NCBI GenBank assembly: GCA_021813585.1
Contig: JAKAJV010000015.1
Coordinates: 62,001-126,000 of the forward strand
Origin: Bacteroidota bacterium
GTDB lineage: Bacteria; Bacteroidota; Ignavibacteria; Ignavibacteriales; Ignavibacteriaceae
Direction of reading: 5' to 3'
Length of the DNA stretch: 64,000 nt
Part shown: positions 46,417-53,400 of the stretch, piece by piece
Position numbering within the stretch: position 1 is the stretch's first letter
Layout of the letters: each line of letters opens with the position of its first letter
The notes under the pieces: generated by a model
The model's input: the letters and a program-made list of their open reading frames with translations, nothing else
Told to the model about the DNA's origin: nothing
The model's database searches: none
Position numbers and translations under genes: made by a program

Positions 46417-47802
46417 ATGAGTTTAAAGAGGGTTCATGTATGGTTAAAGAAAAGCTTTTCAATAGCATCGTTAAAATCTTTTTTAGATAAATTCGACGGG
46501 TACCTTAAAGGCACAAAGCTTCCCCCGCTATTAAAAAACGCGCGGCTCGTCTCCGGTGCATCGGCAGCAATTATTATAATCTTTTTTATTTTGTTCATCA
46601 GGTCTTTTTCAGCTGCAAAGACCAAAGTGCCCGTCTACAAAGTTGTAAAAGGCAATTTCCTGGTTTCAATTACGGAAAGCGGCGAGATTAGAGCGAAGAA
46701 CTCAACATCGGTAGTAACACCACGGGTGCAGGGCAATTTAAAAATAATTTACATTGTACCGGAAGGAACGTATGTTCACGCTGGGGATACCGTAGTAAAA
46801 TTCGATCCCACAGAAGCATTGACGAACCTGAAGAACGCAGAGTCGAAGCTGGAGATTACCGAATCGGATAAGGCGAAAATGCTGGCAGATCAAAAATCCC
46901 AGCTTACAAACCTGGAGTCTGCACTGAAAGGCGCAGAGCTTTCCTATGAGCTGTCCAAGCTTAACCTTGAGCAGATGAAATTTGAAGCCGAGATAAAACA
47001 GCAGCAGGCAAAGCTAGAGCATGAAAAGAATCAGCTTAGCTTAACTAAGGCAAAGCAGGACCTGGAGTCGCAGAAGATTATTCAAAAATCCGAATTGAGC
47101 AAAATCGATATACAGGTTCAGCAGGACCGCTCTAACCTGGAAAAGGCTAAGCGAGATCTTTCAACATTAACGCTTACCGCACCTAAAGAAGGATTGGTAG
47201 TTTACGAAGTAAACTGGAGTACCGGCAGAAAGGTAATGATAGGCGATACTCCCTGGCCCGGCATGCCGATTATAAGCCTGCCGGACCTGTCTGCAATGCA
47301 AAGTATGACGTACGTGAACGAGGTCGACGTAAGCAGAGTACGCAAAGGCCAAAAAGTTCTTGTAAAACTAGATGCATTCCAGGACAGTACCTTTGCCGGA
47401 GTTATTTCTTCGGTAGCCTCGCTAGGAAGAAATAAGGATAGAAATTCCAATATAAAAGTATTTGAAGTTGAGGTGGATATTAATTCCCAGTCATCCATAT
47501 TAAAGCCGGGCATGACTACCAGCAACAAAATAATAATAGACCAGGTGTCCAATGTTATTTACGTACCGCAGGAATCAGTCTTTGAAAAGGCAGGGAAGAA
47601 AATTGTTTACGTAAAGAACGGCTCTGGCTTTGATGACCAGGTAGTAGAGACCGGAGAGAAGAGCGAGAACTACATAGTTGTTACCAGGGGCTTAAATTCC
47701 GGCGACGAAGTTGCGTTGATAGATCCCAACATTAAGCCGGATGAGTTTGAGTTGAACAGCGAGAAGAGCAAATCGGTAAACTACCCTTCTACGGTGAAGT
47801 GA
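46417..47802 (+). CDS. Efflux periplasmic adaptor (HlyD/MacA type)
   Basis: 461 residues. Membrane helix GASAAIIIIFFILFIRSFS (about 49-67). Lipoyl half KIIYIVPEGTYVHAGDTVVKFDP, a long coiled-coil hairpin (about 135-235, LESALKGAELSYELSKLNLEQMK), second half LTAPKEGLVVYEVNWSTGRKVMIGD, then barrel and membrane-proximal domains. GGGGAAAAG precedes ATG 46417. It overlaps the permease gene by 4 bases, so translational coupling. Operon with MacB-like permease and TolC. Confidence 0.9.
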   Translation: MSLKRVHVWLKKSFSIASLKSFLDKFDGYLKGTKLPPLLKNARLVSGASAAIIIIFFILFIRSFSAAKTKVPVYKVVKGNFLVSITESGEIRAKNSTSVVTPRVQGNLKIIYIVPEGTYVHAGDTVVKFDPTEALTNLKNAESKLEITESDKAKMLADQKSQLTNLESALKGAELSYELSKLNLEQMKFEAEIKQQQAKLEHEKNQLSLTKAKQDLESQKIIQKSELSKIDIQVQQDRSNLEKAKRDLSTLTLTAPKEGLVVYEVNWSTGRKVMIGDTPWPGMPIISLPDLSAMQSMTYVNEVDVSRVRKGQKVLVKLDAFQDSTFAGVISSVASLGRNKDRNSNIKVFEVEVDINSQSSILKPGMTTSNKIIIDQVSNVIYVPQESVFEKAGKKIVYVKNGSGFDDQVVETGEKSENYIVVTRGLNSGDEVALIDPNIKPDEFELNSEKSKSVNYPSTVK

Positions 47803-49091
47803 TGAAAGCTTTCGAATCATTCATGATCGGCCTTGCGGGGCTGCGCTCCAACAAGCTTCGCGCCGCACTAACGATGCTGGGTATAGTGTTCGGGGTAGCT
47901 GCGGTCATAGCAATGATGTCAATAGGCGAAGGCGCCAAGCAGGAAACCCTGCAGCAGATTGAGCTGATGGGGACGAACAATATAATCATCCAAAGGCAGG
48001 CTATTAAGCAGGGAATAAAAGAATCGAAGGCGATGTTCTCGCCCGGGCTAAACCTAGAGGATGCAAAATCAATTAAGGAGCTTGTTCCTTTAATAGAATA
48101 TGTTACGCCGCAGAGGGAAATGGAAAACAAGCTGATATATAAATCTTACATACTCGATGTCAGGTTCATCGGTACAACGCCGGAATATCCGCACACATTC
48201 AACTCAAAGCTTGAGGAAGGGACTTTCTTTCAGAATTTTCATCTTTCGGAGTACGCCAATGTATGCGTTATCGGCTCGGCGATAAAGGAGAAGCTTTTTA
48301 AGTTTGAGGATCCTCTGAAAAAGAAAATTAAAATAGACGACCAGTGGTTTGAAATTATAGGCGTAATGGCCCCGAAAGATATTTCAAGCTCGACCGGCGG
48401 ATTAGGCCTGCGCAACTTTAACGAAGACGTTTATATCCCTATTACAACAATGATGAATAAGCTGGAGCCGATGGCACCGCCGCAGTCGAATATAGAATTC
48501 TTTTATCCGGGTATGCAGGAGCCCGCCAACGTAATAGATAGAAATTCGGTCGACCAGTTAACAGCGAAAGTAAAAAACTCCGATTATCTGAAGCAGGCAG
48601 CTTATCTGGTTGAGAAAATTATGCAGCGGCGGCATTACGGTATAAAAGATTATGCAATCGTTCTGCCGGAAGAGCTGCTGGCACAAAAGCAAAAAACGCA
48701 AAGGATATTTAATATTGTAATGGGCGCCATCGCAGGAATATCTCTCCTTGTAGGAGGAATAGGGATAATGAACATTATGCTGGCAAACATTCTGGAAAGG
48801 ACAAGAGAGATAGGCGTAAGACGCGCAGTAGGAGCTACTAAAATAGACGTCCTTAGCCAGTTTATGTATGAAGCCCTTACGATAAGCGTTGCAGGCGGAC
48901 TGCTGGGAATAATTGTTGGCTACTTTATGACTTCTTTAATTTCTACTTACGCCGAATGGAAGACTATTATTTCACCGTTCTCGGTTATTCTTGCATTCGT
49001 CGTTTCGGTTGCCACCGGGCTTGTCTTCGGGATTTATCCGGCTAAGCAGGCGGCGGAAAAGAATCCGATTGACTCGTTGAGATATGAATAA
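47799..49091 (+). CDS. MacB-like ABC permease without a fused ATPase
   Basis: 430 residues. First helix AALTMLGIVFGVAAVIAMMSIGEGAKQETLQQI, MacB_PCD periplasmic domain (about 40-290), and C-terminal FtsX with GIGIMNIMLANILERTREIGVRRAVGATKIDVLSQF plus two more helices. True MacB carries an N-terminal ATPase; here it is absent and no ABC ATPase lies in this operon. Overlaps the adaptor by 4 bases. Confidence 0.9.
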   Translation: MMKAFESFMIGLAGLRSNKLRAALTMLGIVFGVAAVIAMMSIGEGAKQETLQQIELMGTNNIIIQRQAIKQGIKESKAMFSPGLNLEDAKSIKELVPLIEYVTPQREMENKLIYKSYILDVRFIGTTPEYPHTFNSKLEEGTFFQNFHLSEYANVCVIGSAIKEKLFKFEDPLKKKIKIDDQWFEIIGVMAPKDISSSTGGLGLRNFNEDVYIPITTMMNKLEPMAPPQSNIEFFYPGMQEPANVIDRNSVDQLTAKVKNSDYLKQAAYLVEKIMQRRHYGIKDYAIVLPEELLAQKQKTQRIFNIVMGAIAGISLLVGGIGIMNIMLANILERTREIGVRRAVGATKIDVLSQFMYEALTISVAGGLLGIIVGYFMTSLISTYAEWKTIISPFSVILAFVVSVATGLVFGIYPAKQAAEKNPIDSLRYE

Positions 49092-49099
49092 AAAAATCG

Positions 49100-49574
49100 A
49101 ACGCAGATGACGCAGATTAAACAGATTTTCACAAAAGGGAGGCTTTTATGTCAGAATATTTATACAAGGAGTTGTCTGAAAAAATAATAATATGCTTTTA
49201 TAAAGTTTATAATACTCTAGGTTACGGATTTTTAGAAAAGATATATGAAAAAAGTTTGGAGATTGAATTAAAAAAGAATGGGATTAGAGTTGAGACTCAA
49301 AAACCAATTAAAGTTTACTATGAAGGTAATCTTGTCGGAGACTATTTTGCAGATATGTTAGTTGAAGACAAGATTATTCTTGAATTAAAGGCGGCTGAAA
49401 CTATAATCGAAGAACATGAATTTCAATTAATAAATTATCTTAAAGCTACAAATATAGAGATAGGTTTGTTGTTAAATTTTGGTAAGAAACCGGAAGTTAG
49501 AAGGAAAATATTTACTAACAATAGAAAACATTTATGATCGGTGTAAATCTGTTAGATCAGTGTTATCAGTGTTC
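49100..49574. mobile_element. Inverted-repeat-flanked GxxExxY nuclease cassette
   Basis: Left arm 49100-49133 (GAACGCAGATGACGCAG...) and right arm 49541-49574 are 34-bp imperfect inverted repeats; I count 26 of 34 matches, including a run AACAGATTT. They lie 14 bases before and 3 bases after the GxxExxY gene, hugging it. A weaker, partial copy of the motif (CGGATTAAGCAGATTC) is visible near 54796. The unit separates the permease from the TolC gene of an otherwise continuous operon, so insertion is inferred. Confidence 0.7.
49148..49537 (+). CDS. GxxExxY protein (PD-(D/E)XK-like)
   Basis: 129 residues. The name motif G-F-L-E-K-I-Y is at 27-33. The nuclease-like core is FADMLVEDKIILELKA (D69 and E79-x-K81) with a following EEHEFQLINYLKAT helix. 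Known family: TIGR04256; multi-copy in many genomes, function unknown, related to PD-(D/E)XK nucleases. AGGG lies before ATG 49148. More AT-rich than the flanking efflux genes, a sign of recent arrival. Between permease and TolC on the same strand. Confidence 0.88.
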   Translation: MSEYLYKELSEKIIICFYKVYNTLGYGFLEKIYEKSLEIELKKNGIRVETQKPIKVYYEGNLVGDYFADMLVEDKIILELKAAETIIEEHEFQLINYLKATNIEIGLLLNFGKKPEVRRKIFTNNRKHL

Positions 49575-49607
49575 TATTGATCTATTATTATAAAGAGGCA
49601 GCAGAGA

Positions 49608-51044
49608 ATGAAATTCTTTTATAGTACAATTCTTATAGTCTTAGCATTTATAAATTTATCGTTCGCGCAGAAAGTGCTTACACTGCAGGATGCACTTTCG
49701 ATAGCGCTGAAGCAGAGTTACGCCATAAAATCGGCAGAGCTTAATTTGATTAATTCCCAGAAGTCGCTTGATGCAATTAAGCTCGGGCTGATGACGTCTG
49801 TCAGCATGGATTTCAACATACCAAGTTATTCCAGAACGTTGTCCAACCAGTTCGATCCTATTACGGGCACGCAGCAGTTCTTCGATTACGGATTTACTAC
49901 CTACGAAAGCAGGCTTTCTTTTTCGCAGCCTATAATCTTTACGAATGGCACATTCACACTTAACGGCGACCTCTGGCAGAGAACGCAGTTTAGTTCCGGG
50001 CAGCAGCTGCCTAAAGATTATTACTCGAACTTAAGCTTGAGTTTATACCAGCCGCTTTTTACTTTCAACACGTTAAAGGCTAGTCTTACGCGCGCGGAAA
50101 TAAATTTAGAGAAAGCCGAAAGAAATTATACCAGTTCATCCAAGGATATTGTTTACAATGTTACCTCTGCTTTCTATCGGCTGTACCAGGCAAGGGAGAG
50201 CGTGGAAATTGCTCACGAAAAAGTAAAGCAGACGGAGAGTTCTTACATTACCGCTCAGAATAAATTCAAAGCCGGCCTTATTGCTGAAGTGGAAGCTCTT
50301 CAGCTTGAGGTTGATCTTGCATCGAGCAGGAACGATCTGTTAAATGCCGAGAGAGATTACAGCGAAGCTAAAAATGATTTTAAAATTCTTATCGGATTAA
50401 AGTTGAGCGACAGCATAGACGTAACCGCAAAGATTGATTATAACCCTGTATCAGTTAACCTGGAAGAAGCAATAAATTACGCACTGGCAAACAGGAGCGA
50501 ATTAAAAAATTCCGAAGCCGATATTGAATTAAGCAAGCTTTCGGTTGATGAGATTAATTCGCAGGGCAGCATAAGCGCATCAATTTCGGCTAACTACGGA
50601 ATAAATAAAGACGACAACCAGTTCGAAGATATTTTTCATCAGTTCGACGGCTCAAGGAGCGTAACGTTCTCAGTCCATGTGCCGGTGCTCGATTGGGGAT
50701 CGAACAGCCGTAAGGTTGAGGCAGCCGAAGCCAATTTAACTCTGAATAAGCTGAGCTACGAAAACCAGAAAGAAGAAATTAAAAAGGAAATTATCGAAGT
50801 CGTTAATAGAATCAACTCAGCCAAAGCCAGAGTTGAAGCGCTAAGCAAGAGTGTAGAGCTTGCACAAAAAAGCTTCGACATAAGCAGCCAGCGCTTCCAG
50901 TCGGGTAACATTACAAGCTTCGAGCTGCAGCAGATGCAGCTTCGATTAACCGACGCAAAGACAAACAGTCTAAATGCTCTTATAGACTACAAACTTGCAC
51001 TGGCAGATTTAAACAGAAAAACACTACACGATTTTGAGAAGTAA
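49608..51044 (+). CDS. TolC-family outer-membrane efflux channel
   Basis: 478 residues with signal peptide (FFYSTILIVLAFINLSFAQ). Two OEP repeats: LTLQDALSIALKQSYAIKSAELNLINSQKSLDAIKLG, YNVTSAFYRLYQARESVEIAHEKV, and later LEEAINYALANRSELKNSEADIELSKLSV and an AQKSFDISSQRFQSGNITSFELQQMQ segment. It forms the outer-membrane exit duct for the adaptor and permease upstream (46417-49091). Last gene of the operon. Confidence 0.92.
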   Translation: MKFFYSTILIVLAFINLSFAQKVLTLQDALSIALKQSYAIKSAELNLINSQKSLDAIKLGLMTSVSMDFNIPSYSRTLSNQFDPITGTQQFFDYGFTTYESRLSFSQPIIFTNGTFTLNGDLWQRTQFSSGQQLPKDYYSNLSLSLYQPLFTFNTLKASLTRAEINLEKAERNYTSSSKDIVYNVTSAFYRLYQARESVEIAHEKVKQTESSYITAQNKFKAGLIAEVEALQLEVDLASSRNDLLNAERDYSEAKNDFKILIGLKLSDSIDVTAKIDYNPVSVNLEEAINYALANRSELKNSEADIELSKLSVDEINSQGSISASISANYGINKDDNQFEDIFHQFDGSRSVTFSVHVPVLDWGSNSRKVEAAEANLTLNKLSYENQKEEIKKEIIEVVNRINSAKARVEALSKSVELAQKSFDISSQRFQSGNITSFELQQMQLRLTDAKTNSLNALIDYKLALADLNRKTLHDFEK

Positions 51045-51123: not shown

Positions 51124-51276
51124 ATGGATAAAACCAAATTGAAAAATACAGACAGTAGAAAAAGAATTAAAAATAAAGCCGATATTAAAAAAAGTATATT
51201 AAAAAAAATTGATTCTTTAAGCTGGGAGATGGGAAAAAAGACAAATTTGTCCCGTAATGAGTTTTATGATAGATAA
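51124..51276 (+). CDS. Small antitoxin-like protein of a PIN module
   Basis: 50 residues, very basic (MDKTKLKNTDSRKRIKNKAD, then KKIDSLSWEMGKKTNLSRNEFYDR). It precedes the PIN gene and overlaps its start by 20 (or 11) bases. Length, basic charge, position and coupling fit a VapB-type or other DNA-binding antitoxin, although I see no clear ribbon-helix-helix core. Assigned from context. Confidence 0.6.
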   Translation: MDKTKLKNTDSRKRIKNKADIKKSILKKIDSLSWEMGKKTNLSRNEFYDR

Positions 51277-51691
51277 AATATTTTTAGACTCGAATGTAGT
51301 TGTTTATTTGTTTGATAAATCCGAAAGACAAAAACAATCGAGAATAAAAAAGTTAATTGCCCAGCATATTACACAATCAAAAATCTATTTGAGTGTTCAA
51401 GTTATAAATGAGTTTGTAATTGTTACCTCAAAAAAAATTGCTTTCCCTATAACTGCCTCCAGGCAGAAAGAAATAATTGAATTACTAAATGATTTATTCT
51501 CGATTGTTCCGCTTAATTACATAACTTCCTTAAGGGCATTGGAATTATCTGTAAAGTATAAGTTATCTTATTGGGATTCACTTATAATATCGTCTGCAAT
51601 AGAAAATATGTGCAATATATTATTTACGGAAGATATGCAAAACGGGTTGATAATTGAAGATAAACTTAAAATAGTTAATCCATTTAGTTAA
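51257..51691 (+). CDS. PIN-domain toxin (VapC-like RNase)
   Basis: About 144 residues (ATG 51257; ATG 51266 also possible). Seen: IFLDSNVVVYLFDKSE (first Asp), QVINEFVIVTSKK (Glu), LSYWDSLIISSAI (Asp) and LFTEDMQNG (last Asp), so the four acidic residues of the PIN fold are all present. Predicted Mg-dependent RNase. The antitoxin is the preceding small gene. AT-rich relative to neighbours, consistent with acquisition. Confidence 0.85.
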   Translation: MSFMIDKIFLDSNVVVYLFDKSERQKQSRIKKLIAQHITQSKIYLSVQVINEFVIVTSKKIAFPITASRQKEIIELLNDLFSIVPLNYITSLRALELSVKYKLSYWDSLIISSAIENMCNILFTEDMQNGLIIEDKLKIVNPFS

Positions 51692-52916: not shown

Positions 52917-53141
52917 TTAGCTTTCGTGCCGGTTTGCAGCTATTTTTATCAACAATTTTAAAACTTTATTTACATCCTTGGAGGTAGGAAAAGCCTTAGC
53001 TACTTCCGGTTCAAGCAAGACAATATTACTATTTTTATTAAATTCTCCGGCATATTTACCCCTGACTCCTTCTTTAAGATTTTTGAAATCATATTCTTTC
53101 CGTAGAACATCGTACCGTTGTTTTTTAGTTGTACCTTTCAT
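52917..53141 (-). CDS. brnA: BrnA-like antitoxin
   Basis: 74 residues: KKQRYDVLRKEYDFKNLKEGVRGKYA then a SNIVLLEPEVAKAFPTSKDVNKVLKLLIKI ribbon-helix-helix region. It starts inside the end of the BrnT gene (overlap 53125-53141), the usual BrnT-BrnA order. Neutralises BrnT and represses the operon in known systems. The exact antitoxin family is moderate confidence; the pairing is strong. Confidence 0.8.
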   Translation of the reverse strand: MKGTTKKQRYDVLRKEYDFKNLKEGVRGKYAGEFNKNSNIVLLEPEVAKAFPTSKDVNKVLKLLIKIAANRHES

Positions 53142-53400
53142 AAAACTTTCTTTCTTTTTTTGTAGCTAATCTTGCACTAATTATCCTAATTCTATTTTCT
53201 CTTTCGGTATGAGACACTATTAGAATTTTACCTGTTACAGACTGACCAATGGTTATAAATCGTTCTTCACCCAATGAATGATCAGGATCGACAATAGTAT
53301 ATGATAAAATATCTCCGAATATTGTTGAGGCTTCTTCAAAAGAAATATTATGTTTCCTAATATTTTCTTCTGCTTTTAAAGAATGCCATTCAAAAATCAT
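53125..53400 (-). CDS. brnT: BrnT-family toxin
   Basis: 91 residues: FEWHSLKAEENIRKHNISFEEASTIFGD, then EERFITIGQSVTGKILIVSHTERENRIRIISARLATKKERKFYER. This is the BrnT (RelE-superfamily RNase) signature: WD/H-x-x-KA-x-N..KH..F.EA and R-x-I-S-A-R-x-A. Promoter-proximal gene of the BrnTA operon, on the minus strand facing the acyltransferase-like gene. Confidence 0.93.
   Translation of the reverse strand: MIFEWHSLKAEENIRKHNISFEEASTIFGDILSYTIVDPDHSLGEERFITIGQSVTGKILIVSHTERENRIRIISARLATKKERKFYERYN

Follow-up and report, generated by a model that had tools for sequence, protein, structure and literature searches.

The GxxExxY gene studied here and the two inverted repeats that flank it, referred to as arms, are shown by comparison across genomes to be one genetic unit. 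Arms of the same kind are scattered elsewhere in genomes that carry the gene, and gene and scattered arms together have the look of a single REP-like genetic element that had gone unrecognised. The nearest parallel appears to be the REP/RAYT systems, with a nuclease standing where those systems have a transposase.

The GxxExxY gene and its arms

The window is a stretch of 64,000 nucleotides from a contig (C83) of a bacterium in the Ignavibacteriaceae, and window coordinates equal contig coordinates minus 62000. The GxxExxY gene (49148..49537, + strand) encodes a 129-aa protein of the PD-(D/E)XK nuclease type (TIGR04256 / PF13366) and is the sole gene between the arms, with no transposase inside the unit. 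The left arm (49095..49133, + strand; AATCGAACGCAGATGACGCAGATTAAACAGATTTTCAC) is composed of tandem 9-10-nt units reading inwards, while the right arm (49536..49578, - strand) is an inverted copy, reading AATAGAACACTGATAACACTGATCTAACAGATTTACACCGATCA on the - strand. Both arms match the arm model R1, at C83:111095-111133 (E 8e-10) and C83:111536-111578 (E 6e-11), respectively, and these E-values are self-included, as the model was built including both window arms. At its longest extension, the inverted repeat found by repeat search covers 49082..49132 on the left and 49541..49591 on the right (51 nt, 73%).

The initial annotation had described inverted repeats of 34 bp, matching at 26 positions, that box the gene. 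This was confirmed, as the best ungapped 34-mer inverted match between the window flanks is 26/34, and 0 of 2000 dinucleotide shuffles of these flanks reached 26 of 34, the top value being 23. The arms lie ~15 (left) and 3 (right) bases from the gene; the left coordinate of the annotation was one base off, and 49100-49133 taken literally yields only 7/34 in register. The description of the neighbourhood also held. Upstream is a gene for a MacB-type permease (47799..49091, + strand), the orthologous junction of which was compared among relatives, and downstream a gene for a TolC-type outer membrane efflux protein (49608..51044, + strand), both being host genes outside the element. The GC content of the GxxExxY gene is 26%, compared to 45% and 42% for the MacB and TolC genes, respectively.

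The two host genes are part of a group of HlyD-type, MacB-type permease, and TolC-type genes (46417-51044), with no ABC ATPase among the ORFs listed nearby. Just 3' of the TolC-type gene, a toxin-like PIN-domain protein is encoded (51257-51691, E 5e-15), with no obvious antitoxin among the adjacent listed ORFs. Further on, two small overlapping ORFs on the - strand (52917-53400) resemble, by eye, a BrnT/BrnA-type toxin-antitoxin pair.

In alignment A4, an arm opens with the head AATAGAAC, after which the pattern CRCNGAT recurs about four times at 9-10 nt spacing. The window arms are imperfect and follow the pattern AATAGAAC-RCNGAT-NACRCNGAT..., again with about four units of 9-10 nt. The unit sequence varies by locus, e.g., CACAGAG, CGCAAAG, ACGGAT, ACGAAA, CACGAAT, ACAGGAT, and GCCAAG, and a rhythm of 9-11 nt is common to all unit types. 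When 69 arms of many types were compared with themselves, the match was highest at shifts of 9 and 10 nt (0.38 and 0.36, compared to 0.27 and 0.28 in shuffles). Folding of single arms was no better than that of shuffles (2 arms tested), and inverted doublets of arms folded as hairpins (z -6.0, -2.1, and -5.3 for 3 doublets). The arm consensus AATAGAACACGGATGACACNGAT... displays neither a GTAG nor a CGTC tag, and a search of Rfam gave no match.

The GxxExxY protein

The window protein matches TIGR04256 (GxxExxY) at 139.9 bits (cut-off 35) and PF13366 at 146.3 bits (cut-off 22; E 6e-43). In Pfam, PF13366 was the only match at E<=10, and no Y1/HUH tyrosine transposase domain was detected. An AlphaFold2 model (pLDDT 93) predicted a PD-(D/E)XK fold, for which the top structural match is Cas4 SSO0001 (Z 9.5, Foldseek E 7e-5), while Hjc resolvases, exonucleases of the RecB/AddB type, and further nucleases sharing this fold matched less well. 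Motif assignment identified the catalytic residues D69, E79, and K81 and the motif Q93xxxY97 in the window protein, and an alignment of 75 sequences shows no variation at D69, E79, K81, or Q93, which form a D-ExK-Q active site. In one orthologous pair, dN is 0.003 and dS is 0.133, giving a dN/dS of about 0.025. Given the Cas4-like predicted fold, the invariant residues, and the low dN/dS, it is very likely that the window protein works as a nuclease and is maintained by selection.

In PADLOC, the window protein had no match, and the second GxxExxY protein of the genome matched Cas4 models only weakly; the window protein was likewise without a match in PHROGs, and no phage record matched. A search of an open-access paper collection, covering both the family and the repeat sequences, returned no paper on GxxExxY function or on a link between GxxExxY and repeats.

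Flanking repeats across the GxxExxY family

The repeat-nuclease-repeat arrangement, put forward as a unit by the initial annotation, is both real and recurrent. An inverted repeat flanks 114 of 145 GxxExxY genes at p<=0.05, with 82 at the floor of p<=0.005, in a set covering the phylum of the source genome and about 20 other groups; it does not represent a random sample of the family, because the loci from genome contigs were selected by their resemblance to the window protein and to relatives aligned with it. No significant flanking inverted repeat was found at 31/145 loci. The arms fit tightly against start and stop codons, with median arm-to-gene gaps of 16 and 3.5 nt in the 145-locus survey. 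In a separate, earlier test, 51% of 111 GxxExxY loci were above the 99th percentile of shuffles, compared to 2.6% of 114 neighbouring ORFs and 3.7% of mismatched flank pairs at the same cut-off. As arms are widespread in intergenic space, it could be argued that AT-rich intergenic repeats merely happen to lie near GxxExxY genes. However, such a coincidence has a negligible probability and is refuted by the shuffles at the window and by the difference between control ORFs and GxxExxY loci.

A look for the same flanking repeats at other GxxExxY loci had been proposed as a check. The second GxxExxY gene of the source genome, located between hemE and a hemN-like gene, does carry inverted repeats, but these have a sequence of their own (TTCACCGCAAAGTCGCGGAGGCGCAAAG / TTCACCGCAATGACGCTAAGACGCAAAG), unlike the window arms. 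Within the phylum, GxxExxY is present in 75 of 148 sampled genomes, or about half. Relatives of the window protein are found in distant phyla at 57-72% identity, and one is on a Fusobacteria plasmid (65.5% identity) with a short inverted repeat of the ATCCGTGTACCTATNA type; these distant-phylum and plasmid relatives suggest horizontal spread of GxxExxY.

Similar gene copies within one genome were also seen. At L036 (G092:C4), a tandem GxxExxY pair encodes proteins that are 99% identical, and the flanks are near-identical as well. Another pair, in one MAG (L056/L063, 83% identical), was considered as a case of intragenomic copying, yet this is doubted, as homology extends beyond the arm and mixing in the MAG is possible.

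Match between arm type and protein clade

For genes from different phyla, the more alike the proteins are, the more alike their arms tend to be (Spearman 0.29, 0 of 500 permutations), and within genomes the correlation between protein and arm was not significant (69 pairs). The window clade, recognised by LGYGFLEK...GKKPE, is accompanied by arms of the ATAGAACRCNGAT type in several phyla, among them Bacteroidota, Chloroflexi, and Armatimonadota. Furthermore, the CAC or CGC type of the units agrees between left and right arms (rho 0.77, 80 loci). Within genomes, the left-right difference in this type is 0.14, compared to 0.43 for arms reassigned at random inside each genome (26 loci in 10 genomes, p 0.0005), and since the agreement is found inside genomes, genome base composition cannot be its source.

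Arms away from the gene

For arms of clade A, the type described by R1, the source genome has 16 copies, G148 has 21, and the congener G159 has 26, so that copies per genome are in the tens. In several genomes, many of the dispersed arms form compact inverted doublets with few nucleotides between the arms; in arm surveys the doublet centres are short and nearly fixed, and most doublets are without a gene. Repeats spread over the genome without the gene had been regarded by the initial annotation as speaking against its reading. Such repeats are present, but mainly in genomes with the cognate clade: of 17 genomes having a clade A gene, 16 contain clade A arms, compared to 14 of 58 where only other GxxExxY genes are found and 4 of 73 without GxxExxY. 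Arm presence is associated with the clade A gene across these 148 genomes of the phylum (Fisher 3e-11), although the sampled genomes are related, which makes the p values stronger than truly independent cases would give. When two arms are discounted for each gene, the mean number of arms is 9 in genomes with clade A, 1.6 in those with other GxxExxY genes, and 0.14 in those with none.

The genomes with orphan arms include G047, of the same order, in which the clade A gene is broken and the arm count is inflated by a MITE. This genome has 42 arm matches, many of equal score, and the burst was considered as a recent transposition. This was rejected, as the copies are inside a separate MITE with GAGACCTCTGAAAAAT termini and therefore give no evidence for mobility of the element discussed here. 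The MITE (L266-L281, L283, e.g., L267:1515) is present in high copy number, has the termini GAGACCTCTGAAAAAT / ATTTTTCAGAGGTCTC, and holds a captured arm doublet inside it; an identical arm score was obtained for at least 25 copies, and contig ends are a frequent location. Capture by a MITE with its own terminal repeats thus does occur, and it could be speculated that the arms are the terminal repeats of some ordinary IS or MITE, that an unrelated transposase moves them, and that the nuclease is a passenger. Yet arms co-vary with the GxxExxY clade across phyla and between sides, arm copy number follows the cognate clade, and neither a transposase in the unit nor a target duplication was recognised, making such cargo very improbable.

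Other arrangements of arms were also observed. At L243 (G154:C77), the downstream side of a clade A element is a complete arm doublet, and TGAAATCAAT together with the arm head forms a direct repeat that brackets the gene, as would be expected had the unit entered beside a doublet. In the genus of G054 (L264, L328-L347), an intergenic region is pieced together from several interspersed repeats, of which one spans ~70 nt (query 611-682) and recurs dozens of times in each genome. Finally, a lone arm at L002:1501-1543 (C83:149217) supplies the end of the coding sequence, including the TGA stop, for the transporter gene upstream of it (...AIEHG*).

Different states of the same site across genomes

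Three states are seen at the MacB-TolC junction. The window carries arms and gene, while in congener G159 there is no gene, only the two arms, placed head to head around a centre of 18 nt. Empty sites, suggested at the outset as something to look for, were sought, and the element is absent from six order-level relatives (L163-L168), which display a plain junction with neither arms nor gene. At site L021 in another genus, the element is found in three species, a divergent or rearranged version in one, and an eroded gene with remnants of the outer arms in one (G038), while the genes are directly joined with no element in three.

Between hemE and hemN, orthologously placed elements are found in many genomes of the order, including different families. 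Their GxxExxY proteins fall into two clades (99/98 support), and the division coincides exactly with arm type, the units being all CAC or all CGC on both sides, apart from one mixed case. In three genera, congeners are split between the element clades. The clearest pair is G169 and G218, where hemE and hemN are 87% and 88% identical, respectively, whereas the GxxExxY proteins are 61% identical and the arm types differ; the hemE tree unites the two genomes (99/96 support), and hemE and hemN follow the hosts in this pair. The simplest reading is that the whole unit, including the arms, was replaced at one site, while an ancestral duplication followed by differential loss is less likely. As some elements keep the same site across families of the order, mobility would be slow. 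No target-site duplication was recognised at MacB-TolC, at L021, or at gene-less arms in genus g43, where flanks are too diverged, or too much of a repeat mosaic, to show one, and neither an excision product nor a recent burst of the element was found in the compared genomes.

Some of these observations may be explained by a free-standing homing gene, a reading close to that of the initial annotation, for which doublets would be the pre-existing target: the nuclease would cut the doublet centre, the gene would be copied in by repair, and the arms would be the halves of the split target. The short, near-fixed doublet centres would provide a uniform target, and in-place replacement at hemE-hemN is in line with homing. 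The arms-only site in G159 fits a homing target or gene loss equally, the latter being comparable to the eroded gene of G038, and its centre of 18 nt is atypically long for a doublet. Moreover, the arm type differs by element and follows the gene clade across phyla, which argues that arms travel with the gene, and the gene is absent from most doublets. A homing gene is thus an unlikely explanation.

Alternatively, the gene and arms could be a resident, non-mobile module in which the nuclease serves repair, defence, or DNA uptake, with the repeats acting as its binding sites, as regulatory sites, or as hairpins in mRNA. This would be consistent with the strong purifying selection (dN/dS about 0.025), the long persistence at one site across families, the tight fit of arms to start and stop codons, and the arm copy that supplies a stop codon. 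However, the in-place swaps between congeners, the close protein relatives in distant phyla and on the Fusobacteria plasmid, the scatter of arms over the genome, and the merely weak PADLOC matches speak against a resident module, which is considered quite unlikely.

Proposed explanation

By analogy, the gene and its repeats probably represent a REP/RAYT-like system with a PD-(D/E)XK nuclease in place of the Y1 transposase. The low-copy nuclease would recognise the 9-10-nt units of its own arm type, as the co-variation of arms and protein suggests. Recognition by the protein is proposed because the units at hemE-hemN are uniformly CAC or CGC in both arms; base pairing between the arms alone would give matching partners but not uniform units. 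The nuclease may act on arm doublets, probably extruded as hairpins or cruciforms or in single-stranded form, and nick or cut them. Host repair would then copy or exchange doublets between sites and occasionally the whole arms-plus-gene unit. Rejoining of the cut DNA would be left to the host, since a PD-(D/E)XK enzyme, unlike RAYTs, makes no covalent protein-DNA bond. That gene-less arms track the cognate clade, as REPs track RAYTs, argues for this REP/RAYT-like system and not for a simple homing gene.

More tentatively, GxxExxY genes and their arms could well constitute a separate class of selfish or domesticated elements in many phyla, spreading doublets by nuclease and host repair with no transposase or recombinase, and could be the source of many unexplained CACAGAG, CGCAAAG, ACGGAT, and ACAGGAT repeats. 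The tie to dispersed repeats gives GxxExxY a candidate substrate, and many unexplained intergenic repeats gain a candidate enzyme. If true, REP-like systems would have evolved around no fewer than two unrelated enzymes.

Comparison with known systems

In protein terms, GxxExxY resembles Cas4 and RecB nucleases in its predicted PD-(D/E)XK fold and D-ExK-QxxxY motif set. Unlike Cas4, the window protein is 129 aa long with no CRISPR genes adjoining, and having one cysteine only, it is without the Cas4-type iron-sulphur site of four cysteines. Like free-standing homing endonucleases, it is encoded by a small nuclease gene placed between genes, polymorphic at a fixed site, and replaced in place, but GxxExxY brings flanking repeats that also occur gene-less elsewhere. 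With MITEs and IS elements, it shares a short unit bounded by inverted repeats and gene-less derivatives, yet it has no transposase, no recognised target duplication, and arms made of tandem units.

The closest likeness is to REP/RAYT systems. A REPtron is a Y1 transposase gene flanked by inversely oriented REPs, pairs of inverted REPs scattered over the genome are called REPINs, and RAYTs are single-copy and distinct from one another within a genome (PMC8266576, PMC3116915). Repeat families without a dedicated transposase are stated as an open question in the REP literature (PMC3733652). As in REP/RAYT systems (PMC3116915, PMC8266576), GxxExxY genes are low-copy, non-identical enzyme genes flanked by inverted repeats, and the same repeats are dispersed between genes as hairpin-forming inverted doublets. 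As with RAYTs (PMC3116915, PMC8266576), the repeat type is specific to the cognate enzyme, the genomes compared here being phylogenetically non-independent. In contrast, the GxxExxY enzyme is a PD-(D/E)XK nuclease and the RAYT a Y1/HUH transposase, and a single GxxExxY arm is no palindrome, has no GTAG/CGTC tag, and is a run of 9-10-nt units present in tens, not hundreds, of copies per genome. As the architecture matches that of a REPtron while the enzyme, palindrome, and tag do not, the element may be described as REPtron-like without being a REPtron.
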